DNA of 64,000 nucleotides from Methanolobus profundi (GTDB lineage: Archaea; Halobacteriota; Methanosarcinia; Methanosarcinales; Methanosarcinaceae): the NCBI RefSeq assembly GCF_900114835.1, contig NZ_FOUJ01000001.1:558001-622000 (forward strand), written 5' to 3'. Within the stretch, counting starts at the first letter, position 1. Each line of letters begins with the position of its first letter. The position numbers were made by a program, and so were the translations under genes. Below the pieces are notes generated by a model that made no database searches, was not told the DNA's origin, and saw nothing but the letters and a program-made list of their open reading frames with translations. Below are positions 13,239-31,020 of the stretch, one piece after another.

Positions 13239-14162
13239 ATGAAAAACACTTTGCTGAGCCATAACAAATATCTGCTTCTCATTCCACTTGCTCTTTCCAT
13301 TATTCTTATAACAGCTTCAAGTGGGTGTTTTGAAGGAAAGGAGGCATTGAAAGTATCCCTTGGAAGGACAGAAGCTATAGGCGATCAGGTGGCAAATGAG
13401 ATAACGATACACATTGGTGTCTTTGCCATGGCGTCTCCTAAGACGACCATGGAATATTATCAGGGATTCCTTGACCATTTATCAGATGACATAGGACTCG
13501 AGGTCGAGCTGGTCCAGAGGGACAATCCGGCTGAGATAAATTACCTGCTGGAAACAGGGTATCTTGATGCAGTATTAGTGAGGGAAGATGACTATCTGGA
13601 AGGACATGATGATTTTGGTATGGAGGTCATTGCAGTACCTGTGATCCACGGTGATATCCATTATTCCTCTTATGTAGTAACAAGGTCTGATAATAATATC
13701 GGGTCTTTGGAAGATCTCCGCGGTAAGAGATTCGCATTCAATAGCTATCGTTTCAACCGGGGTGATATTGTACCTGAGTATATGCGGTCGGAAATTAACG
13801 GGTCACCTGATCAATTCTTCTCAAGCTATATTTACAGTAACAGTCAGGATAATTTCATTGATATGATAATGCAGGGAACACTTGACGGTGCAGAGATCGA
13901 CTGTATAATGTGGGCCTATTATGTTGAAAGATCTGCCGAACTCTCATCGAACATGAAGATCATCTACACTTCTCCATCACAGGTGTCTCCTGCATTTGCA
14001 GTTCATCCGGATATTGATCCCGGGTTGAAAAGTAAGATAAGGGAATCGTTGCTCAATATGCACAATACTGACGAAGGGAGGCTTGTCCTTGAGGACATGC
14101 ACTTCAACATGTTCGTTGAGATGGATCATGATACTTATTCTTCATATGGTGATGGGTTATGA
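13239..14162 (+). CDS. PhnD-like phosphate/phosphonate-type periplasmic binding lipoprotein
   Basis: 307 aa. Signal helix with lipobox ASSGC (Cys near 30), so lipid-anchored outside the cell. The mature part is a PhnD/PBP2-type fold: IGVFAMASPKTTMEYYQGF (about 61-79), a VQRDN segment, YVVTRSDNNIGSLEDLRGKR (about 145-164) with the typical hinge, and a C-terminal LLNMHNTDEGR. There are no ABC permease or ATPase genes beside it. Instead it overlaps the next gene, a membrane histidine kinase, by 4 bp (ATGA), which points to a sensor role for a phosphorus-containing ligand. Site A of the shared motif lies upstream. Confidence 0.85.
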   Translation: MKNTLLSHNKYLLLIPLALSIILITASSGCFEGKEALKVSLGRTEAIGDQVANEITIHIGVFAMASPKTTMEYYQGFLDHLSDDIGLEVELVQRDNPAEINYLLETGYLDAVLVREDDYLEGHDDFGMEVIAVPVIHGDIHYSSYVVTRSDNNIGSLEDLRGKRFAFNSYRFNRGDIVPEYMRSEINGSPDQFFSSYIYSNSQDNFIDMIMQGTLDGAEIDCIMWAYYVERSAELSSNMKIIYTSPSQVSPAFAVHPDIDPGLKSKIRESLLNMHNTDEGRLVLEDMHFNMFVEMDHDTYSSYGDGL

Positions 14163-16126: not shown

Positions 16127-17089
16127 ATGGATACAAGAAAAGTACAGATAACAGGTAAATCCACTTATGTTCTGACCCTTCCCAAAAAATGGGCAGTTAG
16201 TTCAAAACTGGCAGCCGGTTCACATATATCTATATTCTACCAGGATGATGGGTCCTTACTTCTAAAACCACCTGGCACTACTTCTTCAAAGAAGACAAAG
16301 AAACTAAAGTTCAAAAAAGAACTGGACCATCTTAAGAGAGATATTGTAGGTCTTTACATCGTTGGTGACTATCAGTCAATAGAGGTCGTTAGTGATAGTA
16401 TATCTTCAGAGGAACATAGTGTGATCAAGGACCTTTGCCACCGTCTTGTGGGATTCGAGATAGTTGAGAGCAATGATAGGAAGATAGTTATCAAGAACTT
16501 TCTGGATACTGAGGATTTCACAATAGAGAAAGGTCTAAAACGCATGTCATCTCTCATCTATTTAATGTTGGATGAGCTTGCATCTGCTTTTGAGGAAGAT
16601 GATCGGGATATGTGTCAACATATCATTACTCGTGATGATGATCTTGACAGAATGTTCCTTCTCGTGTCAAAACAGCATGTTGACCGACTTAATCTGAAAA
16701 AACGATCAAAGAATGACAGACTTTCTCTCGTGGAGTCTTTCTATTATCGACTTGCAGCCAGTGATGTAGAACGAATTGGTGACCACATATCCAAGATATC
16801 ACTACATTTTTCTTACCTCTCTTTACCCATGGATGCACGTTCTGTGCTTGTTGATCTCTGCAGGGATTGCCAGAAACTCTTTATGGATAGCAGTGAAGCT
16901 CTAAGAGGGTCTGACCGTGAACTTGCCAATGATGTACTTGGAAGAGGGGATGTTTTCAATGAGAAGCTTATCAATGCAAGTCAGGTTCCTGTAGGAGATT
17001 CCATTGAATTGATAATTGACAGTTTCAGCAGGATAAGGGATTATGCGTCAAATATTGCAGAGTCTGCGATCGATCTATCACAACTATAG
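16127..17089 (+). CDS. phoU: Phosphate-uptake regulator, AbrB-like domain + PhoU domain (PhoU-1)
   Basis: 320 aa. The N-terminus (MDTRKVQITGKSTYVLTLPK, about 1-45) is a SpoVT/AbrB-like swapped-hairpin DNA-binding domain, and the remainder is a two-repeat PhoU helical bundle (about 100-315) with the metal-site pattern ...DDDLDRMFLL and ...ERIGDHISKIS. Archaeal fusions of this type are thought to regulate phosphate uptake directly as DNA-binding proteins, unlike bacterial PhoU. A second paralogue lies at 29602. The following membrane-protein gene starts 47 bp inside this one, so they are probably co-translated. Site B of the shared motif is upstream. Confidence 0.92.
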   Translation: MDTRKVQITGKSTYVLTLPKKWAVSSKLAAGSHISIFYQDDGSLLLKPPGTTSSKKTKKLKFKKELDHLKRDIVGLYIVGDYQSIEVVSDSISSEEHSVIKDLCHRLVGFEIVESNDRKIVIKNFLDTEDFTIEKGLKRMSSLIYLMLDELASAFEEDDRDMCQHIITRDDDLDRMFLLVSKQHVDRLNLKKRSKNDRLSLVESFYYRLAASDVERIGDHISKISLHFSYLSLPMDARSVLVDLCRDCQKLFMDSSEALRGSDRELANDVLGRGDVFNEKLINASQVPVGDSIELIIDSFSRIRDYASNIAESAIDLSQL

Positions 17090-17480
17090 GTTGATCCCTC
17101 TTTTTCTCTGTAGTGCCGTTGTGATCGATTATTCACTGACCTTCTATTTTGCCGGAAGTATTGAGAACATACTGGCACATGAGTTCAGTCCTACTCTTGT
17201 GTTTGCAGTTAAGAACGGTATTGTCCTTCCGTATCTTGCTTTAACTGTTGTTTTCTATTACATTATGGGTTATACTATACTCAGGTTCCTTGAGAACGAG
17301 GAGATATACCCGATCGGTGTTTTTATTATCCTGCTCATGAGCATCACTCATGTGCTGGGGGGTATGTCATGGTTCGTTCTGAAGGAAACGTATTCCAATA
17401 TGATATTCATGTTATCCATGACCTCGATAATAATCGCGATATCCGTGTTCGGATACGAGGTCCTGAAAAGGGAACGATAA
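17043..17480 (+). CDS. Four-helix membrane protein, DUF5658-like
   Basis: 145 aa, four hydrophobic helices (about 17-38, 55-80, 92-113, 122-140). The first helix has IDYSLTFYFA and the next region HEFSPTLVFAVKNG, the aspartate-plus-Thr helix then polar loop pattern of DUF5658. ATG 17043 overlaps phoU-1 by 47 bp in another frame; a later TTG near 17091 would give a shorter N-terminus. The function is unknown. A similar protein sits beside the second PhoU gene (30625-31020), which suggests a functional link. Confidence 0.75.
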   Translation: MRQILQSLRSIYHNYRLIPLFLCSAVVIDYSLTFYFAGSIENILAHEFSPTLVFAVKNGIVLPYLALTVVFYYIMGYTILRFLENEEIYPIGVFIILLMSITHVLGGMSWFVLKETYSNMIFMLSMTSIIIAISVFGYEVLKRER

Positions 17481-17776: not shown

Positions 17777-17794
17777 TAGTGTGGAGTGGGTCCT

Positions 17795-19834
17795 GTGAAA
17801 AAAACGAGTAGGCACATACCTAGCTTCTTCTACATAATAGCGCTGATAGTACTGTTCTCTTCATTCTTACCTTTAGCAGTAGCGGATAATTACTGTCCGT
17901 GCAATGATCTTGATACCTGTGTGGAATGGGTAGATGAAGGCTCTGTCAGTATCAAATGGGGAGAAGTAAAGACCGTAGATGTAAATGGTGTTCTTTATAC
18001 ATTCAGAGCGGATGACTTCACCGGGGATCTGGATGCAGCCCTTATTTCCATTGAGAATGATGGGGTTGTAAGAAAGGAATTCCTTTTCCTGGATGTCTAT
18101 GACAGGATGTCCTTTGAATGGGATAATGAGGTCATGGTGCTATTGGAGGATATAACAACTGATAGTTACAAGACCCCTTCTGCCAAAATAGCGATATATT
18201 ATCGTGGTATCCCTGAGCTTGATATCGAGTTCGATGCGAGTGAGGAAACTATTCAGGGTGTGGATGTTTCATCGGAACAGTATGCTCCGGGTGAGGAAAA
18301 GACCATAGAGGTTGAGGTCACCAATACCGGAGATGCGTGGATAGAGGGTGTGGTCCTTGAGATCCCTCTTGGAGAACTTCGGTTGAGGGAAAAAGGGGAG
18401 TTCCAGGTAAAGGACAATATAATACAGAAGAACCTGGGTTGTCTTGAGGTCGATGACAGTGTTGAGCTTAACTTCACAGTGGTTGCACCTGAGTGGGATG
18501 GTAAGACCTCGCCGTATGATATCAATTATTTCCTTAATGCAACGGCAGTTGGAGATGATATTAAGGGTGATGAACATGAGTTCAATGGTTCTCTGGAATT
18601 AACCTGTACTGATCCTGATATGGAGGTCCTTCTGGAACTCACCAAGGATGAGATAAATATGACCTCCTGGTATGTAGAGGAGCTGGAAAGTGGTACGGAT
18701 AGCTACAGTTCCAACAGTTATGAGATACGTGATGCAACGGAGTTCGTTTTTCTCAGGACACATATCTACAATACTGGTCTTTATACAATAGATGATCTGG
18801 ATGTACAGTTCTCAGAGATACCTGAAGATATTGTGATATCAGAGGCCTATGATTCAGGGGACCATTCATCTATGGATGCGAATGGTCAGTATTATCTGGG
18901 TCAGAAACTCATCGGTATAAGGTCAGGAAAGTACTCCTTTGATAGTGTTATTGTAACGGCAGATATCTTTGGTGAGGAAATGACGTGGAAGTCCGGTACA
19001 GAGTCACTAACGATCCACGGTCCCCATATTGTGGTCGACAAGGATATTTCAGGAACAGGCAATGACTATGCTGTTTCGCTCACATTGAACAATGATGGTG
19101 ACCGTGCAGCATGGATAAACCTGACAGACTCTATTCCTGCAAATGTAACATATGTAAGTGGAAGTGTAGAAAAAGGCCTGGCTGGAAGCAGTTTGCCTTT
19201 GAGTGAATGGGATCTCAGTACTTCAAGATCAAATGATTCATATACATTCTCTGTTGAAGGTGTGCTGCTCCCTCCTGGTTCATCGTTATCTATGTCTTAT
19301 GATGTATCATCAGATACAGCTCTTTATCTTCCTTCTGCGGTTTGTGAGTTCAGGGCTATAGGTGACTATGAGGGAGAAGTGCGTTCCTCATTCTATGTTG
19401 AGGGTAATGAGGTCAAACAATATTGGAAACCTCTGAATGGTGGATGGGTAACGGATGAGAATGCTCTTGATGATGTAGTAGTGGTACAGGTAGAACCGGA
19501 AAAGGAATTTGAGGACGAAGATGATATTGATGAAGATATTCTGTACTCATCAGATGAAGAAATACTGGATACCTCAGATGTGTCACTGGAGGTGCAACAG
19601 GAATCATCCGATACTTCGTTCTTTTCGGCTATTCTGGACCCGTTAACTTCTATGTTCGATAAGGTCCAGCAATTCGTAGGCAATACATTTGATAGTGTTA
19701 TAAATGGAGTTCTTTCACTGTTTGGTGTTGTGGAAAATTCAGCCATAGATGCTGTTGAGAACTATCTCTATGTTGTCATTATTTTAATTGCAGTAGCAGT
19801 TTTTGGTGTGGTATATACTTTGATCTCAAAATAA
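17795..19834 (+). CDS. Large exported protein with S-layer-like and CARDB/DUF11-type domains, C-terminal anchor
   Basis: About 679 aa. GTG 17795 has GGAG 8 nt upstream; an in-frame GTG at 17786 is too close to it. A signal helix (about 8-30) is followed by a domain with WGEVKTVDVNGVLYTFRADD and later VMVLLEDITTD, similar to S-layer duplication-domain half-repeats. Ig-like segments follow (YAPGEEKTIEVEVTNTGDAW; VDKDISGTGNDYAVSLTLNN; NVTYVSGSV) of CARDB/DUF11 type. Then come an acidic Glu/Asp-rich linker (about 565-605) and a final membrane helix (about 655-676) near a basic end. It should sit at the cell surface. It follows the 59-aa gene under motif site C, so it may be phosphate-regulated. 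Confidence 0.85.
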   Translation: MKKTSRHIPSFFYIIALIVLFSSFLPLAVADNYCPCNDLDTCVEWVDEGSVSIKWGEVKTVDVNGVLYTFRADDFTGDLDAALISIENDGVVRKEFLFLDVYDRMSFEWDNEVMVLLEDITTDSYKTPSAKIAIYYRGIPELDIEFDASEETIQGVDVSSEQYAPGEEKTIEVEVTNTGDAWIEGVVLEIPLGELRLREKGEFQVKDNIIQKNLGCLEVDDSVELNFTVVAPEWDGKTSPYDINYFLNATAVGDDIKGDEHEFNGSLELTCTDPDMEVLLELTKDEINMTSWYVEELESGTDSYSSNSYEIRDATEFVFLRTHIYNTGLYTIDDLDVQFSEIPEDIVISEAYDSGDHSSMDANGQYYLGQKLIGIRSGKYSFDSVIVTADIFGEEMTWKSGTESLTIHGPHIVVDKDISGTGNDYAVSLTLNNDGDRAAWINLTDSIPANVTYVSGSVEKGLAGSSLPLSEWDLSTSRSNDSYTFSVEGVLLPPGSSLSMSYDVSSDTALYLPSAVCEFRAIGDYEGEVRSSFYVEGNEVKQYWKPLNGGWVTDENALDDVVVVQVEPEKEFEDEDDIDEDILYSSDEEILDTSDVSLEVQQESSDTSFFSAILDPLTSMFDKVQQFVGNTFDSVINGVLSLFGVVENSAIDAVENYLYVVIILIAVAVFGVVYTLISK

Positions 19835-20022: not shown

Positions 20023-20072
20023 AATATATAGAGATATTGGAATTCTATATTGATTATTGCTCTATATATATG
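20023..20072 (-). promoter_or_regulatory. Putative phosphate-regulon motif, two degenerate copies before pstS (site E)
   Basis: On the plus strand GATATTGGAATTCTATAT (20033-20050) and ATTATTGCTCTATATATA (20053-20070) match the reverse complement of the shared motif (compare ATTATTGGGAGCTATATATA at site D). They lie 100-150 bp before pstS. The copies are weaker than sites A, C and D. Confidence 0.4.
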
Positions 20073-20171
20073 ACTTGTAGAATGATTATATATTCAGCAT
20101 CCAATTAGATGCCAGAGCGATTAAAACTCGCTCCCGAATAGGAACATAAAACAAATTGGTGTACGATAAAC

Positions 20172-21155
20172 ATGAACTTATTTAAGAAACTTTTCAACGA
20201 TGAAGCTGGTGTTTCACCTATCGTTGCAACCCTCGTATTAGTAGTAGTTGCAATCGCTGGTGCAGCAGCAGTAGGAACGATTATGGGATCATTCTCATCA
20301 GACGTATCAGACAGTGCAAGTGCAGGCGATGCAACATCAGCTGCATCAACCGAACTTCTTATCGCTGGTTCAACAACAGTCCAGCCTGTTTCTGAGCTTC
20401 TTGCAGAAGCATACATGGCAGACCACAGCGGTATCAAGGTAACAGTACAGGGCGGTGGCTCCGGTGCAGGTATCACCTCGACCAAGCTCGACATTATTGA
20501 CATCGGTGCAGCATCAAAGGATGTTGACACAGTCAACGAATACCCATCACTTCAGAAACACCAGATTGGTGGAAGTGCTGTAGTAGTAATAACAAATGGT
20601 GTTCTTGAAGGATACAACACAACACAGTCTGAACTCTTCGCTATCTATGACAACTGTACAAGCGGTAAGTCATACTACGCAATCTCCGGTAACAATTTCA
20701 CATCAGCAACTTCTGGTACACAGATTACAGTATTCCAGAGATCAGAAGCAAGCGGTACAGAGGAAACTTTCGCAAAGTACCTTGGTGGAGACTTTGAGGA
20801 TGCAAAGGATGTAGATGAATCCGAGGCAATCGGTGCAGTAGGAAATGCTGGTGTACTTGCAGCAGTGGAAGATACAACAGATTCACTTGGTTTTGTAGAC
20901 TTTGGATTTGCAGTCAGCTCTGAAACTGTCACAATAGTCGGTGTAGATGGATACAACGATGTAGATGAAGATGCAGTTCTTGACTGTCTTGCAGGTGAAG
21001 ACACCTACCAGGAGGACCTTACAAGACCACTCAACTACCTTACAAATGGAAACCCATCCACTGTTGAGCAGTCATTCATCAACTTCGCAATGTCCCCAGC
21101 AGCAACTGAGTACTTCGAAGAAGTTGGATACTTCTCAATAATTGACTTCAGCTAA
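20172..21155 (+). CDS. pstS: PstS-type phosphate-binding protein with archaeal type IV pilin N-terminus
   Basis: 327 aa. The first 40 residues are MNLFKKLFNDEAG then VSPIVATLVLVVVAIAG, which is an archaeal pilin/archaellin-type (class III) signal: basic start, cleavage expected after G13, and a continuous hydrophobic helix. There is no lipobox. From about residue 60 the chain is a PBP2-type phosphate-binding protein: IAGSTTVQPVSELLAEAY, VQGGGSGAGI, DIGAASKDV, RSEASGTEETFAKYLGG and a C-terminal NFAMSPAATEYFEEVGYF. It would be processed by a prepilin peptidase and could be assembled into a filament or stay membrane-held. Its codons are strongly biased, as for a highly expressed gene. Downstream are pstC and pstA. 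Confidence 0.9.
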   Translation: MNLFKKLFNDEAGVSPIVATLVLVVVAIAGAAAVGTIMGSFSSDVSDSASAGDATSAASTELLIAGSTTVQPVSELLAEAYMADHSGIKVTVQGGGSGAGITSTKLDIIDIGAASKDVDTVNEYPSLQKHQIGGSAVVVITNGVLEGYNTTQSELFAIYDNCTSGKSYYAISGNNFTSATSGTQITVFQRSEASGTEETFAKYLGGDFEDAKDVDESEAIGAVGNAGVLAAVEDTTDSLGFVDFGFAVSSETVTIVGVDGYNDVDEDAVLDCLAGEDTYQEDLTRPLNYLTNGNPSTVEQSFINFAMSPAATEYFEEVGYFSIIDFS

Positions 21156-21165
21156 ATTTGGATTG

Positions 21166-21201
21166 AGATTTGTGCAATAGCACAAATCTAACCTTCTTTT
21201 T
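21166..21201 (+). terminator. Hairpin (attenuating terminator) between pstS and pstC
   Basis: AGATTTGTGC (21166-21175), loop AATA, GCACAAATCT (21180-21189), then a T-rich tract. Placed between two genes of one pathway, it probably lets pstS be made in excess of the permeases. Confidence 0.7.
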
Positions 21202-21211
21202 ATTTAAAACG

Positions 21212-22222
21212 ATGATTATGAACGACAAAAGACGACTTTTACAAATCATAAATCTTGCATTTATATCCTCTGCTGTTTTTGCAACATTTTTTGGTTCTAA
21301 TGCTCAGGAATCGAATAAAAGAGCATTATACAATCGTTCAGCAAATCTTATATTTTTTGTCTGCACTATTGTTGTAGCATTCATTGTGATTTTTTTTATA
21401 GGATTTATATTCTACACTGCTTTACCTGTATTCCAGAGTCAGGGTCTGATTAATTTTATTATTACTGATGAATGGAATTATGGTAAGAACATATACGGTA
21501 TTAGGACCTTTATAGCTGGCACTGTCATAATGACTGTTGTTACTCTGATAATGGCAGTACCAATAAGCATTTTTACAGCAATATTCCTTTCAGAGATTGC
21601 GTCTCCCCGTCTTGCCTCCACAATAAGGCCTTTCATTGAATTACTTGTGGGTATACCATCTGTGGTTTACGGTATATTCGGATTGTTCGTGCTAGAAAAT
21701 ATATTTCAGAATCACATAGAGCCTGTACTTGCTTCACTTCTGGGTTTCATTCCTATATTTGTTGATGTCAATCCTCAGTCTGGATTGGGGGTATTGTTAG
21801 CATCAACAGTTTTAGCAATAATGGTATTTCCAACTATCACAACAATTTCTGAAAATGCCATTAGATCCGTATCTGTTGAGAATAGACATGCTTCTTTGTC
21901 TCTGGGTGCCAATAGGTGGGAAACGATAAGAAACGTGGTTCTTCCAGCTGCTTCCAGTGGGATTATGACTGCAGTTGTACTTGGAATGATGAGAGCTATG
22001 GGTGAGACGATGGCTATTGTAATGCTACTGGGTAATTCCAAAACAATCCCTTCTTCAGTAATGGGTCCTGGCTATGCAATGACATCAAAGATCCTCAATG
22101 ATATTGGTCATCATTTTTCTGAAGAAGGCCCACGGGCAGCTCTGTTCGGTATCGCAGCAGTCCTCTTTGCGATTGAAATAGGTTTTGTTGCTGTTTCAAG
22201 ATATCTGGGTGGTAGAAAATGA
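21212..22222 (+). CDS. pstC: Phosphate ABC transporter permease PstC
   Basis: About 336 aa. The frame opens at 21170, but that lies inside the terminator hairpin, so ATG 21212 or 21218 is the likely start. No clear ribosome site is seen. An N-terminal extension of about 55 residues precedes TM1. Six membrane helices follow, with the ABC inner-membrane EAA-type loop SLGANRWETIRNVVLPAA (about 233-250), the contact site for an ABC ATPase. FLSEIASPR and GIPSVVYGIFGLF are PstC hallmarks. The stop overlaps pstA by 4 bp (ATGA). It should work with PstS and PstA, but its ATPase PstB is not in the cluster. Confidence 0.95.
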   Translation: MIMNDKRRLLQIINLAFISSAVFATFFGSNAQESNKRALYNRSANLIFFVCTIVVAFIVIFFIGFIFYTALPVFQSQGLINFIITDEWNYGKNIYGIRTFIAGTVIMTVVTLIMAVPISIFTAIFLSEIASPRLASTIRPFIELLVGIPSVVYGIFGLFVLENIFQNHIEPVLASLLGFIPIFVDVNPQSGLGVLLASTVLAIMVFPTITTISENAIRSVSVENRHASLSLGANRWETIRNVVLPAASSGIMTAVVLGMMRAMGETMAIVMLLGNSKTIPSSVMGPGYAMTSKILNDIGHHFSEEGPRAALFGIAAVLFAIEIGFVAVSRYLGGRK

Positions 22223-23112
22223 ACCATAGAAAAGCAAAAGAATCTTTTTACATATTCCTATGTTATTTCTCAGCAGTCTTAGCAACACTGGCTCTTTTTG
22301 GAATACTTGGAAAAATCGCTCTGGAGGCTCTTCCAAGTCTTAACTTAGAATTCCTACTTACTCCTGAAAATGAAGCAGAAGGTTTTGGAGGTGGAATAGC
22401 AAATGCAATAGTTGGGACAATTCTGCTGTCATTGCTGTCCACAATATTTGCTTCTCCTATTGCGGTAGGGACTGCAATATATATGCAAAGATATGCAAAG
22501 AATGCGCGTCTTGTTAAGAGCTTTAGTTTTATAATAGATGTCCTCTCAGGAACGCCCTCAATTGTGCTTGGAATATTCGGACTGATGTTCCTTGTGTATT
22601 ATATGCGCTTTATTACCGGTGGTTTTTCGCTTATTTCTGGTGCGATCGCTCTCACAATTCTGATCTTACCCGTGATCGAGCGTTCTGCAGAAGAGGCCAT
22701 TAAATCTGTTCCTGCAGAATTAGAGGATGCAAGTTATGCACTGGGAGCTACAAAATGGGAAACTATCAGTAAAATTACTCTTCCAAATGCAACTACTGGT
22801 ATTGTTACAGGTATAGTTCTCAGCATAGGAAGAGCTGCTGAAGAATCGGCAGTTGTGGTTTTGACTGCAGGTTATTCTCAATTTATGCCAGAGTTTGGTG
22901 TGGCTGCAAAGGAGAGTATGCTTTTTGGAATACGCATATCTCCATTACAGAATTTGGTAGCTTCTCTTCCAATAACAGTATACCATTCTTTTGAATTCCC
23001 GAGTATGGTATCTCCATCAGAAGGTTTTGCAGCAGCATTTGTCCTAATAGTCATCGTAATGGTCATCAATGCAATCACCAGATTGATTGTCTGGAGGCGC
23101 AGAATTGGCTAA
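22219..23112 (+). CDS. pstA: Phosphate ABC transporter permease PstA
   Basis: 297 aa with six membrane helices. The coupling loop is YALGATKWETISKITLPNA (about 173-191). GTPSIVLGIFGLMFL and the IGRAAEESAVVVLTAG segment are typical of PstA. It partners PstC in the phosphate channel. In most genomes pstB follows. Here the next frame, a secretion ATPase, begins inside the end of this gene and the two overlap by 8 bp, so translation is probably coupled. Confidence 0.95.
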   Translation: MNHRKAKESFYIFLCYFSAVLATLALFGILGKIALEALPSLNLEFLLTPENEAEGFGGGIANAIVGTILLSLLSTIFASPIAVGTAIYMQRYAKNARLVKSFSFIIDVLSGTPSIVLGIFGLMFLVYYMRFITGGFSLISGAIALTILILPVIERSAEEAIKSVPAELEDASYALGATKWETISKITLPNATTGIVTGIVLSIGRAAEESAVVVLTAGYSQFMPEFGVAAKESMLFGIRISPLQNLVASLPITVYHSFEFPSMVSPSEGFAAAFVLIVIVMVINAITRLIVWRRRIG

Positions 23113-25279
23113 ACTTCAGCTAAGATCTCCTTTCAGTAGAAAGAGCCATTCATCAGAGATAGATGAGGTAATTCGGGAAGTGCTTGAAATAGAATTCAGC
23201 CCCGATCAGGCAATAATCATTCCAGAGAGCGGGGCGGATGGTCATGTACCTTTAGATGAAGATGGTCCCATCCTGATATCTGATGAAGTGGAAGTAATAG
23301 AAACCTTGGATACTACTGATACTAATATGGATATTTCGGAAGAGATAACAGGTGATGTAGTATCCTTGTCTGAGGATATGGGATTGGATGTAGATGTTTC
23401 TTCTCTTCAAAATAAAATGAATGGATCCGTCAAAAAGAAGAGATTTGGGTTAGTTTTGTCGAAGAAGATCAAAGGCTCATCTGAAAAGAAGAAGAAAAAG
23501 GATAATAATCAGGTGTCAGAACCAGAAGATAATTCTCTTCTCCCAGATAGTTCTGTGGAAAATAGTAAAAAAGGTACAAAGAGGTCAAAATTCAACCTTG
23601 ACCTAAATTTTAGCTTAAAGAAGAAAAATGGCAAACAAAAAACAGCTGAGGAAGCTCTTATATCCACAGATGAGCAGGAACTGAGGTCTGAAGAAGATTC
23701 ACAGGTCTCTTTACTTCTTAAAAAGATAGAACAGATAATAACTCCCGCTCCCGAAACAATTGAAGAGATGAAATTCACTTTCGGTGAACTATCGATCCCT
23801 GCTCCCGGAGTTCCTCAAAAGGAAGTCAATATAACTTATGAAGTGACATCTGGCACTCAGTACGTTCATATTGAGTTCGATGGTGAGTCTCTTCAATACA
23901 AGTGTCTGGAACCTCCACTAAGTGATAGTGAGAAGGAAGCACTTTACATAATACAGAATGCCTTTGACAAGATGGCACACTCTGAGATATTGCTTGTAGA
24001 AGAAGAGGACCGAGCTGAGGCTTTAAGGGACAGGTTCGAACTTATCGTTGATATCTATCGTCTGAAGCTTAGTGATACACAGAAGGACAAGTTCTTCTAT
24101 TATCTTCATAAAAAATACATGGGCTTTGATAGGATGGACCTCCTGATGAAAGATCCCTATATCGAGGATGTAACCTGTAACGGTCCATTCACTCCTCTTT
24201 ATGTTAATCACAGGGTCTATGGTTCAGTTGCCACAGATGTGGTCTACGAGGAAATAGAGCTCAACAACTTTGTCATGAGGATGGCACAGGCAGCAGGCAG
24301 GCATATCTCCGTTCTTGAACCCATCAGGGATGCGACCCTTGTGGATGGAAGTCGTGCCAACCTCACACTTGGAAAAGAGGTCACAAAAAGAGGTTCGACT
24401 TTCACTATCAGGCGTTTCAGGTCCAATCCTGTTTCCTGTATCGACCTGATGAACTACAAGACATATGACTCCACGGTTCTTGCATATTTCTGGTTAATGG
24501 TGGAGTACAAGCGTTCTGTGCTGGCAGCAGGAGGTACTGCATCCGGTAAGACCACCACTCTGAACGCTCTTGGTGCATTCATCCCTCCGGAATACAAGAT
24601 AGTGTCGATCGAAGATACTGCTGAAATGAACCTTATGCATCCGAACTGGACTCAATCTATTACAAGGGCTGGTTTTGGTGGTGGCGAAAGTGGTAAGTCC
24701 GCAGGTGATATCGAGCTGTTCGACCTTCTTAAGGCCGCTTTGAGGCAGAGACCTGAATATATAGTGGTCGGTGAGGTTCGTGGTGCGGAAGCAGGTACTC
24801 TTTTCCAGGCTATCTCTGTGGGTCACCCCTGTATGGGAACCATACACGCAGGTTCTATCCATGAACTGCTTTCCAGAGTAGAATCAGAGCCTATGAACGT
24901 GCCAAGGAATCTATTTGCCAGTGTGGATATGGTGATCTTCAATTCCATGATCAAGGTCGGTGAACATTTCCTAAGGCGTGCACTGCGGATCGTTGAGGTT
25001 GTGGAACTTGATCCGGAACGTGGTGACCTTATCACAAATCCAGTTTTTAAATGGAACCCCATTACGGATGAATATGAGTTCAGTGGCAGTAGTGCTCTTT
25101 TTGATGACATTAACGAGGAGTTCGGTATCGAGCAGGCTGAACTTGTCAGGGAAATGGATATGAGGGCAAAATATCTCGAAAACCTTGCTCGTGACGGTAT
25201 AACTGAATATGAAGCAGTTGCCAGAGCGATAAGGAGGTATTCAAGAGAAAAAGATGAAATGATGGAGATGAGTCATTAA
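23105..25279 (+). CDS. Type IV pilus/archaellum-type secretion ATPase (GspE/VirB11/FlaI family)
   Basis: About 724 aa. I place the start at TTG 23105: GGAGG lies 7 nt upstream, inside pstA, and the codons overlap the pstA stop as TTGGCTAA. Residues about 30-215 are a low-complexity region, acidic then rich in Lys/Ser (KKKRFGLVLSKKIKGSSEKK), longer than in ordinary FlaI. The catalytic part has Walker A GGTASGKTTT (about 475), the Asp box EDTAEM, Walker B IVVGEVRG (about 552) and His box GHPCMGTIHAGS, all intact. Hexamers of this family power assembly of pili, archaella or pseudopili at the membrane platform encoded by the next two genes. It is not an ABC ATPase and does not replace PstB. Confidence 0.93.
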   Translation: MAKLQLRSPFSRKSHSSEIDEVIREVLEIEFSPDQAIIIPESGADGHVPLDEDGPILISDEVEVIETLDTTDTNMDISEEITGDVVSLSEDMGLDVDVSSLQNKMNGSVKKKRFGLVLSKKIKGSSEKKKKKDNNQVSEPEDNSLLPDSSVENSKKGTKRSKFNLDLNFSLKKKNGKQKTAEEALISTDEQELRSEEDSQVSLLLKKIEQIITPAPETIEEMKFTFGELSIPAPGVPQKEVNITYEVTSGTQYVHIEFDGESLQYKCLEPPLSDSEKEALYIIQNAFDKMAHSEILLVEEEDRAEALRDRFELIVDIYRLKLSDTQKDKFFYYLHKKYMGFDRMDLLMKDPYIEDVTCNGPFTPLYVNHRVYGSVATDVVYEEIELNNFVMRMAQAAGRHISVLEPIRDATLVDGSRANLTLGKEVTKRGSTFTIRRFRSNPVSCIDLMNYKTYDSTVLAYFWLMVEYKRSVLAAGGTASGKTTTLNALGAFIPPEYKIVSIEDTAEMNLMHPNWTQSITRAGFGGGESGKSAGDIELFDLLKAALRQRPEYIVVGEVRGAEAGTLFQAISVGHPCMGTIHAGSIHELLSRVESEPMNVPRNLFASVDMVIFNSMIKVGEHFLRRALRIVEVVELDPERGDLITNPVFKWNPITDEYEFSGSSALFDDINEEFGIEQAELVREMDMRAKYLENLARDGITEYEAVARAIRRYSREKDEMMEMSH

Positions 25280-26197
25280 ATGGTCAGGACCCCGGACCTT
25301 GATGTTCATCACGCTTTCAATGAGGACGAGACCAATAAGTACATTGAGAAATACAAAATGTTCTGCTATGTATTCGGTAAGCACATAGATAAGAAACCTC
25401 AGGAAGATGTTGCAAAGTCATTATATCAGGCAGATATGGTGCTGACCCCTGGCATGTTCATGTCTCTTGCACTTGTGACGGCAGGACTGGCTTCAGGTAT
25501 CATTTTCGTATTATCGATCCTACTTTTCAGCAGATCATCTTCTCCACTTGTCTATATCTCCGTTCTGACATTCCTGACATTCGGTCTGACTGTCAGTGGG
25601 TTTCCCTTCATGCTCTATAACAAGATATCGAACAAGAACATGAACATCGAGCATGAGCTCCCTTTTACACTGGGTTACATGACCATCCTTGCAAGCTCCG
25701 GTTCATCTCCGATGGATGTGATCAGGAAAGTCTCTATAGAGGACTATGGTGACGTTTCGACTGAATTTGGTAAGGTAATGTACCGTGTGGATGTTCTGGG
25801 GGAGGATGGTGTAAGTGCCATGAACCACCTTATCAGGAACACATCCTCGGAATCTCTCAGGGCCATATGTATAGATCTTGCCAATGCAATGCAGTCCGGT
25901 GGGGGTTTACGTACCTATCTTGAGATGAAATCACGTGAACTAATGGATATGAGAAGAAAGATGCAACAGGAGTTCGTGGATTCTCTTGGTGTGTATGGTG
26001 AAGGCTATCTCAGTGGCGTGGTCATGAGTGTTGTACTTGTGGTCCTGATGATAGTTGTCACAAGTGCACTTGGGATCGATCTTGGGCCTTTCACGGCCAA
26101 ACAGATGTTCCAGTTCTTCGTTTACTTCATGTTACCTTTCATCAATATCGTTTTTCTTATTTTGTTGTGGATGAAATATTCAAGGAGCACTCTATGA
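25280..26197 (+). CDS. Pilus assembly platform protein, TadC/FlaJ (T2SSF) family, first copy
   Basis: 305 aa, starting directly after the ATPase stop with no gap. A soluble N-terminus (1-55) precedes two helices (about 58-85 and 93-115). The T2SSF cytoplasmic domain then has YMTILASSGSSPMDVIRKVS and LANAMQSGGGLRTYLEMKSREL, and two further helices lie at the end (about 245-265 and 278-300). Such proteins form the membrane platform that the ATPase turns. It overlaps the second platform gene by 4 bp (ATGA), and the pair replaces the single long FlaJ of archaella. Confidence 0.9.
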   Translation: MVRTPDLDVHHAFNEDETNKYIEKYKMFCYVFGKHIDKKPQEDVAKSLYQADMVLTPGMFMSLALVTAGLASGIIFVLSILLFSRSSSPLVYISVLTFLTFGLTVSGFPFMLYNKISNKNMNIEHELPFTLGYMTILASSGSSPMDVIRKVSIEDYGDVSTEFGKVMYRVDVLGEDGVSAMNHLIRNTSSESLRAICIDLANAMQSGGGLRTYLEMKSRELMDMRRKMQQEFVDSLGVYGEGYLSGVVMSVVLVVLMIVVTSALGIDLGPFTAKQMFQFFVYFMLPFINIVFLILLWMKYSRSTL

Positions 26198-27564
26198 ACA
26201 TTGCTATGAATATTGAAAAATATCGCCTGATAATAGGGCGATATGTGCAGATACTGACACTACGGTATGATATAAAACGAGAGTATCTTACATTGGGTAT
26301 CCCGATATTTCTGGCATTCATGATACTTCTCATGGCAGTTCTTACAGGTCACTCCTTCGTTACCGATGAAGCATCAGCAGGAGCTGCTGTAAGTGATGAA
26401 GCTGCTGCAAAACATGCGGCATATGAAGCACTCGTTGCAGAGATGGAAGCCGCAGAGGCAGCAGAAAGAGGCGAGGTGATCGTTGCTGAAGAAGAGGAAG
26501 TGGAACCGGAGCCCGATGAGGAAAAAGGCAAAGATGATCTGGACCATATAATGGTCTTTGCAGTGCTTGTAGCGATCATTCCCTATTCGATAGATTCTCT
26601 ATTAGAGAAAAGAAAGCTACAGAGAAGAGAACTAGCTTTCAGTGAGTTCCTTTACAAATTATCGGAGCTTATGAGAGGTGGTATCGATCCCGTAAAAGGT
26701 TTCATCAATCTCTCAAAGACCAACCTTGGTGCGATAAGTACTCATGCACAGGATGCTGCCTCCTCAATGGTACTTGGGAAATCTTTTGATGAATCCATGC
26801 ACCGGATGTCCCGGTCCATGAACAGCCGCCTTGTAGCCAGATATATCGATGTGGTTGTCCAGGCAGCATATACTGGTGGTAATGTTGCTGACCTGCTGTT
26901 CCGTACTTCAGAGGATATGAGATCTGTCATTGCCATTCAGAGAGAAAAGGAAGCAAATCTGAAGCAGTACATTGTCATCTTCTATCTCGCACAGGGTATC
27001 ATCGTGATGCTGACCTATATCCTTTCGACATCCCTGTTGCCTCTTATTCAGGGTGTAGGTATGGAAATGCTCGGTGGTGCAGGTCTTTCAGACATAGATT
27101 TTGAGCGTGGTTTCTTCCATATGATAATATTGAATGCATTGTTCGGTGGACTTATCATAGGGCAGATCACGGAGGGTGAGATAAAACACGGTTTCAAGCA
27201 TTCGGCGATACTGATAATTTTAAGTTACATTGCATGTGTAACGCTGCTATTGCCTGCTGGTGTGGGTGCTACCTATACAATAAGTATGGTTTCCGGTGAC
27301 GCACAGGAGGTCATGGGTGGCATACCATTACAGCAGCCTATCGTATTCAATGTTACAGATACGAATGGTGCTCCTGTTCCGGGTACTTTTGTTAAGATGA
27401 CAATTTCACCGGATGGTATTATTACAAGTTCTATGACCGATGAGGATGGCAAAGTCTCAGTTGCACCGATACCAGGTTCTGATGCGGGTACGTATATCGT
27501 CACTGCAACAGCGGGTGAATCAAAAGGGACAGCAACAATAATAGTGAATGGAGGAGATGATTGA
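26194..27564 (+). CDS. Pilus platform protein (T2SSF) with C-terminal Ig-like exodomain
   Basis: About 456 aa. ATG 26194 has AAGGAG 6 nt upstream and makes an ATGA overlap with the preceding gene; the frame extends a little further 5'. Helix 1 (about 28-47) is followed by an Ala/Glu-rich insert (about 52-118: AEMEAAEAAERGEV, EEEEVEPEPDEE). After helix 2 comes a T2SSF domain (SELMRGGIDPVKGFINLSK; VVVQAAYTGGNVADLLF), then several helices. Residues about 380-456 form an Ig-like/Big-1-type domain (IVFNVTDTNGAPVPGTFVKM, SSMTDEDGKVSV, GTYIVTATAG) after the last helix, presumably outside the cell. I do not know of this fusion as a standard form. Confidence 0.88.
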   Translation: MNIAMNIEKYRLIIGRYVQILTLRYDIKREYLTLGIPIFLAFMILLMAVLTGHSFVTDEASAGAAVSDEAAAKHAAYEALVAEMEAAEAAERGEVIVAEEEEVEPEPDEEKGKDDLDHIMVFAVLVAIIPYSIDSLLEKRKLQRRELAFSEFLYKLSELMRGGIDPVKGFINLSKTNLGAISTHAQDAASSMVLGKSFDESMHRMSRSMNSRLVARYIDVVVQAAYTGGNVADLLFRTSEDMRSVIAIQREKEANLKQYIVIFYLAQGIIVMLTYILSTSLLPLIQGVGMEMLGGAGLSDIDFERGFFHMIILNALFGGLIIGQITEGEIKHGFKHSAILIILSYIACVTLLLPAGVGATYTISMVSGDAQEVMGGIPLQQPIVFNVTDTNGAPVPGTFVKMTISPDGIITSSMTDEDGKVSVAPIPGSDAGTYIVTATAGESKGTATIIVNGGDD

Positions 27565-27625
27565 TCGCTCCTTCATTCATTTGGATGTTTCATAATTTGA
27601 TATTAAAAAAGATAATAGGACAGGT

Positions 27626-28303
27626 CTAACCAACCCTTTCTCTGTTATCCATGGTAATACCCTGACTGGTGACATTATAGGCGATCATCTTGTTCAGGGG
27701 GATACTTCCTTTCATCTTAGGTATGTTGATGTATCTGTTGATCTTGCCACCGGCGTACTCTGTTCTGAACTGGATAACACCATCTACCATAGAGCGGAGT
27801 ATCTTCTCTGCTCTTTCTGGCAGAATTCCGATATCTGCTGAGAGCAGGAATGTTATATTTGCTTCCCTGCTGATCCTGATGAGGGCTTCTATAGTTTCAG
27901 AAATGACCTCTACATCCTCGTGAATGAAAAGTGATGAGAACATGTCGATCACACAGACGTCCGCATCGGCTATATTGTGCAGAGGACCAGCACCTTCTCC
28001 ATAGAGGCGGATGCACAGTTTGTGTCTTCTGTAGCACATGTCAAGCAGGGATATCGGATCTGAGAAATTTCCGATGACGGTAAGTCTCTCCTTATGATCC
28101 TGGGTCGCTGGTATGTTGAGTTCCTCTATTATATCCTTCTCGGAACTTCTGGTGGAAATGTAGTGAACTTTCTTTCCAAGTTTCAGTGCATCGGAACTGA
28201 TCTTGCGGAAGAAGACACTCTTTACATCTCCTATATCCTCTTCTATTAACAGTACCACATTGGAAGGTACGTTTTTTAAACCGAAGCTAGTTAGCACCAT
28301 CAA
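27626..28303 (-). CDS. FlaH/KaiC-like RecA-fold protein with degenerate P-loop
   Basis: 225 aa on the opposite strand, convergent with the platform genes. The chain follows the FlaH/KaiC layout: a central LLIEE...FFRKISSDALKLGKKVHYIST, then ADVCVIDMFSSLF at the Walker B position, then an arm ending MVDGVIQFRTEYAGGKINR and PKMKGSIPLNKMIAYNV. The Walker A site, which should be GxxGxGK(T/S), reads VVLLIEEDIGDVKSVFF and has no Gly-Lys-Thr. FlaH binds nucleotide beneath the archaellum motor, so this is probably a non-hydrolysing or structural relative for the adjacent pilus machine. It shares its promoter region with the pilin-like gene at 28408. Confidence 0.7.
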   Translation of the reverse strand: MMVLTSFGLKNVPSNVVLLIEEDIGDVKSVFFRKISSDALKLGKKVHYISTRSSEKDIIEELNIPATQDHKERLTVIGNFSDPISLLDMCYRRHKLCIRLYGEGAGPLHNIADADVCVIDMFSSLFIHEDVEVISETIEALIRISREANITFLLSADIGILPERAEKILRSMVDGVIQFRTEYAGGKINRYINIPKMKGSIPLNKMIAYNVTSQGITMDNRERVG

Positions 28304-28360
28304 ATCCCTAAAAGTGATTATTGCTTAAATGGTTTTGGAATAAAATGGCAAAATCTATAG

Positions 28361-28380
28361 ATTATTGGGAGCTATATATA
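28361..28380 (-). promoter_or_regulatory. Putative phosphate-regulon motif, site D
   Basis: ATTATTGGGAGCTATATATA on the plus strand, the reverse complement of TATATATAGCTCCCAATAAT. It lies 28-47 bp before ATG 28408 and 58 bp before the divergent FlaH-like gene, so it could act on both. Confidence 0.5.
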
Positions 28381-28407
28381 TTATAGAAATAAAGTATATA
28401 ATCGCAA

Positions 28408-29562
28408 ATGCACTTTTCATCAGAGATGGCTGGCAACGATATGAGCACTTTCCTGCGCAATGATCGCGGGGTTACTGTTGTATTTGGTACTTTGTTACTG
28501 ATACTTATTACGATAATCGCTGCCACGAGTGTGGCATATATGATCTCTACTACGCAGAAGCAGGCGATGGATCTTGAAAGTCACAAAGCATCCGTTGAGA
28601 ACGAGGATCTCAAAATAGTATCTATTGACCCGGTTGGTGATGGTTCTAATTGGGAGTCCATTGACCTCAAAGTTCTTAATCTCAATACTGCAGATTCCTA
28701 TATCTCAGCAATAAACGTCAATGGCGGATATTTCCTCCATTACAAGGCGTATGAGAGTGAAGGTGTGTTCGATGTCTACAGGGATTACCCTGCTGTCTAT
28801 AGTGCGAACCACAAGGTTGTGGTTCCGGCCACAAGGAGCAAGACGATCCACCTGAATTTTTCGGATATGGTCCTGGAAGGCTCAGAGACGATCGACACTT
28901 CATCATGGACCAATAACAGTCTTGACCACTCATACACACTGGATAAGCATCCATGGTATGCATTCGGTGAGGTTGCATATGACTACCATGTCAATTATTC
29001 TTCCAACGGAACAGAATGCCTTAAAACCGGTAATTTCTCAATAGATGATGAGAACCGGGAGATAACCCTTTTTGGTTCAGGTTCTGGTGGGAACCTTACC
29101 AACAATACGGATTATGATATCTTCTACAAGGTCTATCTTACTTCATATGCAGGTTCATCTCCCTCTGAGAGCGATCCTATAAAGGTCGAGATAATAACCT
29201 CTTATATCAATGTCTTCAAGGAACTTTTCACACCGCCAATGCCAGTGGCCGAGGTCCAGTTCAAGGTGGAGTATCTTCAGAATGCCAATGGTACCCAGAC
29301 CCCTAACAGTTATCTGATACTGGATGCATCTGATTCTCAGGATGTGGATGGTTTTATTACAAGCTATAAATGGGCCGTGTGGAAGGATTCGGGTAACGGA
29401 ACAGTGACACTTTATGACTATGATCTCTCAGGTATGGTTGTAAGGCCAATAGGTATCGACCCTTATAATGACAAGAATGTCACTATCGATCTTGAGATAA
29501 CAGATGATGATGGCATGACCTCCCGACTCGGTCAGGTGTCAGGTAACCTGACGATCCTTTAA
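28408..29562 (+). CDS. Archaeal pilin-like exoprotein with PKD-like C-terminal domain
   Basis: 384 aa from ATG 28408; ATG 28426 and 28441 are alternatives and the last gives the tightest signal (MSTFLRNDRG). RNDRG then VTVVFGTLLLILITII is an archaeal type IV pilin N-terminal signal and helix (cleavage after Gly). The exodomain starts with LKIVSIDPVGDGSNW and a KVLNLNTADSYIS segment seen in archaeal pilins. Residues about 280-384 look like a PKD-type beta-sandwich (YLILDASDSQDVDGFITSYK, LEITDDDGM). It would be a large minor pilin or adhesin of the machine encoded upstream. It carries motif site D in its promoter. Confidence 0.82.
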   Translation: MHFSSEMAGNDMSTFLRNDRGVTVVFGTLLLILITIIAATSVAYMISTTQKQAMDLESHKASVENEDLKIVSIDPVGDGSNWESIDLKVLNLNTADSYISAINVNGGYFLHYKAYESEGVFDVYRDYPAVYSANHKVVVPATRSKTIHLNFSDMVLEGSETIDTSSWTNNSLDHSYTLDKHPWYAFGEVAYDYHVNYSSNGTECLKTGNFSIDDENREITLFGSGSGGNLTNNTDYDIFYKVYLTSYAGSSPSESDPIKVEIITSYINVFKELFTPPMPVAEVQFKVEYLQNANGTQTPNSYLILDASDSQDVDGFITSYKWAVWKDSGNGTVTLYDYDLSGMVVRPIGIDPYNDKNVTIDLEITDDDGMTSRLGQVSGNLTIL

Positions 29563-29601: not shown

Positions 29602-30657
29602 ATTTCACATAAAAGAAAGATCCAGTTGACAGGTGGTTCCACATACATAGTTTCTCTTCCAATAGACTGGGTAAGGGAAGGTGACCTTGGTGCTGGGGAT
29701 ACTGTAGTTCTTACGGTGAAGCCGGACCGTTCACTCTTGATCACTCCTGATCAGGGAAAGCAGAGAAAGAACGGCCGTTCAAAGGTCGAGATGATCGCAT
29801 CTGAAGACAGAGAAGAGAATTTCAGGACACTTGTGGCGAACTATCTTGTTGGCTATGATATCATCAGGGTAGTCTGTCCAGGTGGTTTTTCTGCAGCTGA
29901 ACGTAAGTATCTCAAAGAATCTGCCAGAAAACGTCTGATTGGTATCGAGATCGTCGAGGAGTCCAGGACCGAAGTAGTTCTACAGAATCTTCTGAACTAT
30001 CAGGATATCTCACTGGAAAAGTCCCTGCAGAGCATGTTCCGTATAATATCTTCCATGATGGAGGACTCTATCGTTGCTTTAAGGGAAGGTGATGTGGAAC
30101 TTGCTAAAGACATAGTCCAGAGGGACAATGATGTCGACAAATTCTATCTTTTAAGTGTAAGGCAGATCAAGGCTGCACTGGATGATTCTGTCCTTGCCCA
30201 GAAGATCGGTATCAAAAATTCAAAAGATTGCCTTGGTTATCGTCTTATAATCAAGCTCATGGAACGTATAGGTGATCACGTTCATGGAATAGCAAACACC
30301 GTTATTCAGATAGGTGATCATAAGAACGATAATGAGGAAGTTATCGAGATGGGTATGGTTTCACACAGGCTTTTCCAGGATTCGTTCCAGGCTGTTCTGG
30401 ATATCGATGTTGAGATCGCAAATCATATAATGAGGACCTCAAAAATATCATCTGCTCTTGGTAACAGGATAATTCAAAGATCAGAGTTATCTGATAGTGC
30501 TTATTGTCTTTATGGGGAAAAGCAAAGAAAGATAATTGAGAGTTTCCAGCGTATCGTTGAATATAGTGCCGATATCGCTGAAATGGTCATCAATATGAAA
30601 GCTACTGACATTAAAGAGTCTCTCTCAGGAGAGGCCCAGATACTCGAACAGGCTTGA
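29602..30657 (+). CDS. phoU: PhoU-2 with AbrB-like N-terminus, probable AUU start codon
   Basis: About 351 aa if started at ATT 29602, which has a strong AAGGAAGG (29588-29595) 6 nt upstream. The next standard start, TTG 29626, has no such site and would remove the first strand of the AbrB-like domain. With the ATT start the protein reads (M)SHKRKIQLTGGSTYIVSLP and aligns with RKVQITGKSTYVLTLP of PhoU-1. The PhoU bundle follows (about 110-340) with QRDNDVDKFYLL and ERIGDHVHGIANT. It follows the pilin-like gene by 40 bp and is probably part of the phosphate control circuit. Confidence 0.88.
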   Translation: MSHKRKIQLTGGSTYIVSLPIDWVREGDLGAGDTVVLTVKPDRSLLITPDQGKQRKNGRSKVEMIASEDREENFRTLVANYLVGYDIIRVVCPGGFSAAERKYLKESARKRLIGIEIVEESRTEVVLQNLLNYQDISLEKSLQSMFRIISSMMEDSIVALREGDVELAKDIVQRDNDVDKFYLLSVRQIKAALDDSVLAQKIGIKNSKDCLGYRLIIKLMERIGDHVHGIANTVIQIGDHKNDNEEVIEMGMVSHRLFQDSFQAVLDIDVEIANHIMRTSKISSALGNRIIQRSELSDSAYCLYGEKQRKIIESFQRIVEYSADIAEMVINMKATDIKESLSGEAQILEQA

Positions 30658-31020
30658 TCTTACAGTTATTACCATAAGGTTATTGATCACAAGGACAAGG
30701 CCGAACAGGCTGATCCCCATCCTTGATATATCCCATAGCTTCCTGGCATATGAATGAACCGATGTCCTGACCGATCTGTAGTTCCAGTAGATCACCAGCA
30801 GTATCAGCATCTTTACTACAAGTAAGGACCATATTCCGTGAGATGCCATTATCCCTGAAAGAAAACCATTCTCCTCAAATCCGTATCCATTGCTAAGTGC
30901 ATGGAATGTGGTAAGGAAATCCCCTATTACGTAAAGCAGGATGATGTATCTTGCATCATAGATGAATTCGTATATCTCTTCTGTGCTGAACAACCCTTTT
31001 TCGATATTTTTAGAGAACAT
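30625..31020 (-). CDS. Four-helix membrane protein, DUF5658-like
   Basis: 131 aa. A short polar start (1-25), then helices at about 26-45, 60-78 and 105-125, with GDFLTTFHAL in the first helix and the polar EENGFLSG loop, matching the DUF5658 pattern (Asp in helix 1, E-x-N/G loop). It converges on PhoU-2 and their 3' ends overlap by 33 bp. A DUF5658-like gene also overlaps phoU-1, so the association occurs twice in this window. The function is unknown. Confidence 0.75.
   Translation of the reverse strand: MFSKNIEKGLFSTEEIYEFIYDARYIILLYVIGDFLTTFHALSNGYGFEENGFLSGIMASHGIWSLLVVKMLILLVIYWNYRSVRTSVHSYARKLWDISRMGISLFGLVLVINNLMVITVRSSLFEYLGLS

Follow-up and report, generated by a model that had tools for sequence, protein, structure and literature searches.

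The window, a stretch of 64,000 nucleotides from Methanolobus profundi, carries a gene cluster in which a phosphate transporter is joined to a pilus assembly machine. The gene of the phosphate-binding protein, pstS, the permease genes pstC and pstA, and the genes of an assembly ATPase and two platform proteins, TadC1 and TadC2, form a single overlapping run on the + strand, and this run is nested in a conserved block of 13 genes. The PstS of the block carries a class III signal, as pilins do. The genome comparisons support a real, ancient and dedicated association of a pilin-type PstS and PstC/PstA with one clade of pilus machine. Our preferred explanation, for which we would give somewhat better than even chances, is that the block is a bindosome-like system dedicated to phosphate, where the machine would assemble PstS. 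Until now such a use of a machine has been known for sugars alone, in the distantly related archaeon Sulfolobus.

Linkage of the pst genes and the pilus machine

Our genome sample covers one archaeal phylum, and the family set within it consists of 101 Methanosarcinaceae genomes. Orthologues of the ATPase were found in 23 of these, with 62–87% identity, the next paralogues having at most 49%. The orthologue keeps pstSCA alongside in 28 of the 28 genomes that could be assessed, 20 Methanosarcinaceae and eight from four other families. All 20 family genomes with enough contig have pstA, with pstC beyond it, upstream of the ATPase gene, and TadC1-TadC2 downstream wherever the contig reaches; in one locus (L057) a transposase is inserted between pstA and the ATPase gene. 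In G091 and G093, which have too little contig for this count, pstSCA is on a different contig, at its end or close to it, and G099, without sequence upstream of the ATPase gene, is not counted either.

A wider search with a TadC1 profile, against 393 genomes of the phylum and 108 of the family f15, found TadC1 orthologues outside the Methanosarcinaceae in the families f9, f10, f15 and f26. An ATPase orthologue with pstS, pstC and pstA adjoining is present there in G164 (whose PstS is cut by the contig end, so that the N-terminus is not visible), G105, G295, G367, G150, G402, G404 and G447. In f26 and f15 the TadC pair lies on the opposite side, yet the pst genes and the ATPase gene are still together, and a conserved linkage can thus be told apart from a mere conserved order. 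In G150 and G402, pstA is separated from the ATPase gene by two or three genes of surface proteins. G177 has kept TadC1 and TadC2, and the ATPase orthologue and the class III PstS are both absent. An earlier note on this DNA had named random adjacency in related genomes as grounds for giving up the idea of a functional link; the adjacency is instead kept throughout five families while the order is rearranged.

The 26 pst-linked ATPases form one clade (Shimodaira–Hasegawa-like approximate likelihood ratio test, 98) in a quickly built tree of 43 rows with several long branches among the unlinked ones, and pst linkage requires one change on this tree as compared to a shuffled mean of 13.7. The nearest rows outside the clade, G210 and G373, also adjoin class III PstS-like proteins. 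Another locus (L128, 1205-2428 and 10346-13985) has a sister machine, and next to it a class III protein remotely similar to PstS as well as a separate ABC (ATP-binding cassette) transporter, the binding protein of which has a PGF-CTERM anchor. The PstA proteins of family f15 have a C-terminal extension of 200–650 residues (L133 2783-5515; L134 7193-10039; L227 8676-10199, - strand; L231 3662-5197, - strand); a fusion to a surface domain (910–948 residues) was considered, but no domain beyond the permease was recognised in the two that were scanned.

A PstS profile found class III PstS in 21 of the 23 ATPase-positive and in none of the 78 ATPase-negative genomes of the family. The two positive genomes without it are fragmented; the contig of G089 ends within pstC, and the contig of G099 that carries the ATPase gene begins inside this gene. 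In five genomes that have the machine, a further class III PstS adjoins an AbrB-PhoU gene. The PstS-like proteins of G090, G086 (a second copy) and G001 were candidates for a class III PstS without a machine, and were rejected as they have a plain transmembrane segment and adjoin a histidine kinase; two of them (G090, G001) are in ATPase-negative genomes. These proteins and the neighbouring kinases (L199 9394-10440, - strand; L200 9707-10723, - strand; L201 1-996) are possibly phosphate-sensing pairs.

The eight genes named by the earlier note, pstS, pstC, pstA, the ATPase, two T2SSF proteins, an ArlH/KaiC-like protein and a pilin, are all present, and the close spacing it described was measured as gaps of -4 (pstC/pstA), -8 (pstA/ATPase), 0 (ATPase/TadC1) and -4 (TadC1/TadC2, an ATGA with the start at 26194). 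The conserved block is wider than the cluster it had described and reaches from phoU1 at 16127 to a DUF5658 gene at 31020, although some of the outer genes are absent or displaced in individual genomes. The 13 genes are given below in their kept order, together with two promoter elements.

16127..17089, + strand, phoU1, an AbrB/MazE-PhoU protein (PF01895 4.7e-20, PF04014); edge of the block, position conserved
17043..17480, + strand, hydrophobic membrane protein of 145 residues; accompanies the machine in all five families
17786..19834, + strand, machine-associated NEW3/DUF11 surface-type protein of 682 residues, COG1361-like (PF01345 3e-7)
20045..20071, + strand, promoter element CTATATTGATTATTGCTCTATATATAT 5' of pstS; kept in 15 Methanolobus loci
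20172..21155, + strand, pstS; class III signal, helix at about 13-37, linker 38-57, phosphate-binding domain (TIGR02136 5.6e-29)
21170..22222, + strand, pstC, permease (TIGR02138 1e-85, over the cut-off); EAA loop kept
22219..23112, + strand, pstA, permease (TIGR00974 4e-79, over the cut-off); EAA loop kept
23105..25279, + strand, assembly ATPase of FlaI/PilB type (T2SSE; PF00437 4e-32; NF058587 3.5e-125, below the cut-off)
25280..26197, + strand, TadC1, platform protein (T2SSF; PF00482 1.8e-11)
26194..27564, + strand, TadC2, platform protein (T2SSF; PF00482 6e-15); the open reading frame opens at GTG 26167
27626..28303, - strand, ArlH/KaiC-like protein (PF06745 1.5e-10, NF052589 5.9e-14)
28355..28382, + strand, promoter element GATTATTGGGAGCTATATATAT 5' of the pilin gene
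28426..29562, + strand, type IV pilin with a head resembling immunoglobulin (Ig) and PKD domains (TIGR02537 4.4e-5, over the cut-off)
29626..30657, + strand, phoU2, an AbrB/MazE-PhoU protein (PF01895 5e-19, PF04014 2e-9)
30625..31020, - strand, DUF5658 membrane protein (PF18902 2e-5, over the cut-off); edge of the block

The best start of the ATPase is the TTG at 23105, with GGAGG just 5' of it, and its N-terminal part of about 230 residues is variable. The true start of pstC is likely a downstream ATG. The reading frame of the pilin opens at 28408, and its orthologues begin at 28426. The NEW3 gene keeps its position between the 145-residue gene and pstS in the Methanosarcinaceae, and scanning the 145-residue protein against Pfam and NCBIfam gave no match. 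The C-terminal end of TadC2 is an Ig-like domain (Big_1/CarboxypepD_reg-like; PF02369 5e-8, below the cut-off), which is unusual in platform proteins. The block is adjoined by the gene of a phosphonate-binding-protein-like lipoprotein overlapping a histidine kinase gene (13239-15985), a pair that is also found in the relatives L046, L047, L049 and L204, and not in L048 and L050.

The pilin-type PstS and its apparently exchanged cassette

The pilin-type signal that had been noted on PstS is borne out both by its class III motif, with cleavage predicted after the AG of NDEAG and before VSPIVATLVLV, and by the matches of the N-terminus, KKLFNDEAG followed by VSPIVATLVLVVVAIAGAAAVGTIMG, to solved archaeal pilus subunits (8fj5, 2.1e-4; 8rey, 2.4e-3; and more weakly Iho670). 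The pilin model TIGR02537 matches 19 of the 21 class III PstS proteins of the family, many of them weakly. A prepilin peptidase is encoded elsewhere in the genome (PF01478 8.1e-14, C15:59908). Behind the helix the protein is a PstS; the best Foldseek matches of its AlphaFold2 model are all PstS, profile matches in the PDB agree, and the ligand-site residues S97, D110, R190, S194 and G195 are invariant. The TIGR02136 score is 101 bits as compared to a cut-off of 207, so the block PstS is a divergent one. Among 12 divergent members the identity is 0.80 in the PstS helix, 0.44 in the binding domain, 0.59 in PstA and 0.54 in PstC, and the helix is more conserved than every 25-residue window of the binding domain. 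The binding domain is mostly modelled with a confidence (predicted local distance difference test) above 90; the helix spans residues 15-37, and the stretch 29-57 is of low confidence. The model of the Ig/PKD pilin has a helix of 46 residues that runs straight into the beta domains, as in canonical pilins, and matches the archaellins 7ofq and 5z1l with a probability of 1.00.

Pairwise identities among 12 Methanolobus loci revealed two histories in one operon. Those of pstS, pstC and pstA are intercorrelated (0.71–0.90), and those of the machine genes are correlated among themselves (0.64–0.95), whereas between the pst genes and the ATPase, TadC1, TadC2, ArlH-like, NEW3 and 145-residue genes the correlation is -0.38 to 0.24. 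Between G039 and G018 the promoter, the leader and the first 45 or so codons of pstS are 83–100% identical in windows of 30 bases, mostly at least 90%; over the binding domain, pstC and pstA the identity falls to about 60%, and with the start of the ATPase gene it rises again. The window and G039 share about 0.83 in the pst genes and about 0.66 in the NEW3 gene. This looks like the exchange of a cassette of receptor and permeases, in which the pilin-type tail stayed constant and the break fell directly behind the helix codons. The tail would then be fitted to the machine, and the binding domain to the permeases, an idea that the pattern supports.

The promoter motif reported to be common to pstS and the pilin gene is real. 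The pattern TATTGN{1-4}CTATATAYAT has three matches in the 3.1-Mb genome and its reversed control none, and two of the three are upstream of these two genes; a TATA-like ATTATATAT follows at 20085-20093, 5' of pstS. The third copy (G000:C7:33833-33851, L215) lies between a peroxiredoxin gene and an ABC-type gene, upstream of the former, so the element is not exclusive to phosphate genes and was rejected as a phosphate-specific box. Together with the two AbrB-PhoU genes, the shared element points to a possible regulation of the block by phosphate. The leader of pstS may form a short hairpin in the 5' untranslated region, GAGCG...CGCTC (20115..20133, + strand), which is present in 15 of 15 Methanolobus loci with one compensatory change. 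This hairpin has no match in Rfam, and with such weak support it was not retained as a riboswitch.

There is no pstB in the block of the window or inside the Methanosarcinaceae clusters. PstB over the family cut-off was found in 28 of the 30 genomes searched, nearly always away from the block, and the other two have partial matches. A second, canonical operon of the Methanolobus genome encodes a lipoprotein PstS along with PstC, PstA, PstB and two PhoU. G404 and G447 have pstB immediately past the pilin gene, and the block of G053 is next to a canonical pst operon. The block PstC and PstA score 287 bits (TIGR02138, cut-off 196) and 266 bits (TIGR00974, cut-off 193), and the EAA loops where the nucleotide-binding domain docks are intact in both. 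The simplest reading is that a PstB encoded elsewhere is shared and serves the block permeases. A new coupling, with the pilus ATPase replacing PstB, was set aside because the docking loops are intact and PstB is available in trans.

How the machine may serve phosphate uptake

In the explanation that we prefer, PstS would be exported with its class III signal, be cut by the prepilin peptidase of the cell and keep its pilin-type helix. The ATPase, TadC1 and TadC2, with the ArlH-like, 145-residue and NEW3 proteins and the Ig/PKD pilin, would then recognise this helix and install or concentrate PstS in the cell envelope or the surface layer (S-layer), probably around a short pseudopilus made of the Ig/PKD pilin. 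PstS would pass phosphate to PstC/PstA, powered by the PstB made elsewhere in the genome. For such a system speak the linkage in 28 of 28 genomes, the single ATPase clade, the co-occurrence of 21/23 against 0/78, the joint loss in G177, the pilin matches and the conservation of the helix, the prepilin peptidase, PstB in 28 of 30 genomes with the EAA loops intact, the cassette exchange with a constant promoter and helix, and the Bas precedent discussed below. Several points weigh on the other side. The genome counts are not phylogenetically independent, since members of one family cannot be taken as separate samples, the shared promoter element is not exclusive to phosphate genes, and the PstS helix is short with a low-confidence linker, unlike core pilins. 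Furthermore, many archaea have class III substrate-binding proteins, and assembly does not necessarily follow (PMC2910488), and the machine could assemble the Ig/PKD pilin only.

This last point leads to the rival that we take most seriously, although we consider it rather unlikely, a regulatory co-operon. PstS would here be a monomer anchored by its helix, and the machine would build only an adhesive Ig/PKD pilus under the same conditions, for example for attachment at low phosphate. The canonical architecture of the Ig/PKD pilin, the promoter element it shares with pstS, the short PstS helix and the commonness of class III binding proteins in archaea would all fit, but it would be left unexplained why no class III PstS was found without the machine, why the helix is conserved above any 25-residue stretch of the binding domain, and why the PstS-like proteins in machine-less genomes have a plain transmembrane segment. 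PstSCA without a PstB of its own might also sense phosphate instead of importing it, and act jointly with the AbrB-PhoU proteins as a switch that turns the pilus machine on or off. The missing pstB, the two flanking AbrB-PhoU genes and the complete second Pst operon in the same genome agree with this, but the docking loops and ligand residues are intact and some genomes (G404, G447, G053) have pstB beside the block, and we regard a sensor as quite improbable. Chance neighbours or hitch-hiking genes without a functional link are close to refuted; type IV pilus loci of archaea can indeed include unrelated genes, but chance adjacency is rejected because the linkage is kept in all five families despite rearrangement, and the co-occurrence and the one clade also speak against it.

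The earlier note had proposed that the machine assembles PstS-type subunits or a filament next to them. The dedicated and conserved association has stood; a filament of PstS is less likely, the modelled helix being short and the linker of low confidence. In its strong form, where PstS subunits would themselves build a long surface filament for harvesting phosphate, the proposal is improbable, if a little less so than the sensor. The N-terminus of PstS matches archaeal filament subunits, including the large-headed Iho670 fibre, and five genomes with the machine have additional copies of class III PstS. Against this, the binding protein would be carried away from PstCA in such a filament, and even in Sulfolobus an appendage formed by the bindosome has never been seen (PMC4187195). 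A broader proposal, that of a type IV filament machine with a phosphate receptor as its main cargo, in arrays or filaments of PstS, and with an exchangeable binding-protein-and-permease cassette behind a constant tail, is tentative, and we lean against it.

Comparison with known systems

The earlier note knew of no described system of this kind, which overlooks the bindosome of Sulfolobus solfataricus, where class III sugar-binding proteins (GlcS, AraS) depend on BasEF for their surface function (PMC4187195). In its genes the block is like Bas: a class III signal marks the binding protein of an ABC transporter, and there are an ATPase of the FlaI/GspE type and a platform of the PilC/TadC type. 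The cargo of Bas is, however, sugar-binding proteins, and that of the block would be PstS; the bas genes (BasABC, BasE, BasF) form a locus of their own, while the block machine is joined to the transporter operon; Bas has one BasF and the block two TadC genes; and an ArlH-like partner, present in the block, is not recorded for Bas. The block ATPase scores 187.5 bits with the BasE model NF053672 (cut-off 1000), and the platform 32.5 bits with the BasF model NF053673 (cut-off 1300).

As in the archaellum (ArlI, ArlJ, ArlH), an ATPase, a platform and an ArlH/KaiC-like protein occur together with a class III subunit. The ATPase scores higher with the archaellum FlaI equivalog than with BasE, 418.7 bits, but the cut-off is 550, and all block scores are under the archaellum equivalog cut-offs. 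An identity with either Bas or the archaellum by orthology is thus ruled out. The block is also without archaellin or other arl genes, and a separate archaellum-type locus is present in the same genome. The Walker A motif of the ArlH-like protein is degenerate, with EEDIGDVKS in place of the intact archaellum-type GGSGGGKS, and its glycines are lost in all aligned orthologues, so the protein may be a relative of ArlH that has a regulatory or structural role. A C-terminal TRER motif is strongly conserved among these orthologues.

The block belongs to the archaeal type IV filament superfamily by its secretion ATPase, TadC/PilC platform and class III pilin, with the prepilin peptidase in the genome. 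Euryarchaeal type IV pili likewise have an ATPase and TadC proteins, a pilin of the Pilin_N type and surface proteins, and compared to them it is new that the operon contains pst genes; the main text of a census of archaeal type IV pili from 2016 (Makarova et al., PMC4858521) does not mention phosphate, PstS or ABC transporters. No published report of a pilus machine linked to Pst came up in targeted literature searches, with subscription papers mostly outside reach. The block resembles canonical PstSCAB-PhoU in its PstC and PstA, which are over the equivalog cut-offs, and in the PstS-family fold with conserved ligand residues, but a canonical PstS is held by a lipobox, while the block PstS would be tethered by a pilin helix, in a cluster without pstB.

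Relative to the bindosome, the novelty lies in phosphate as the cargo, in a machine genetically fused to the transporter operon, in its occurrence among methanogens and their relatives, and in the exchange of the cassette. If the phosphate-dedicated system is real, it would bring a second substrate class and an independent lineage to an idea hitherto based on one Sulfolobus species. It would also suggest how S-layer archaea, which have no outer membrane, hold nutrient receptors at their surface, and the constant pilin tail with its variable receptor would be a natural experiment in domain exchange. As the pilus machine and its transporter are in one operon, machine and cargo can be tested together.

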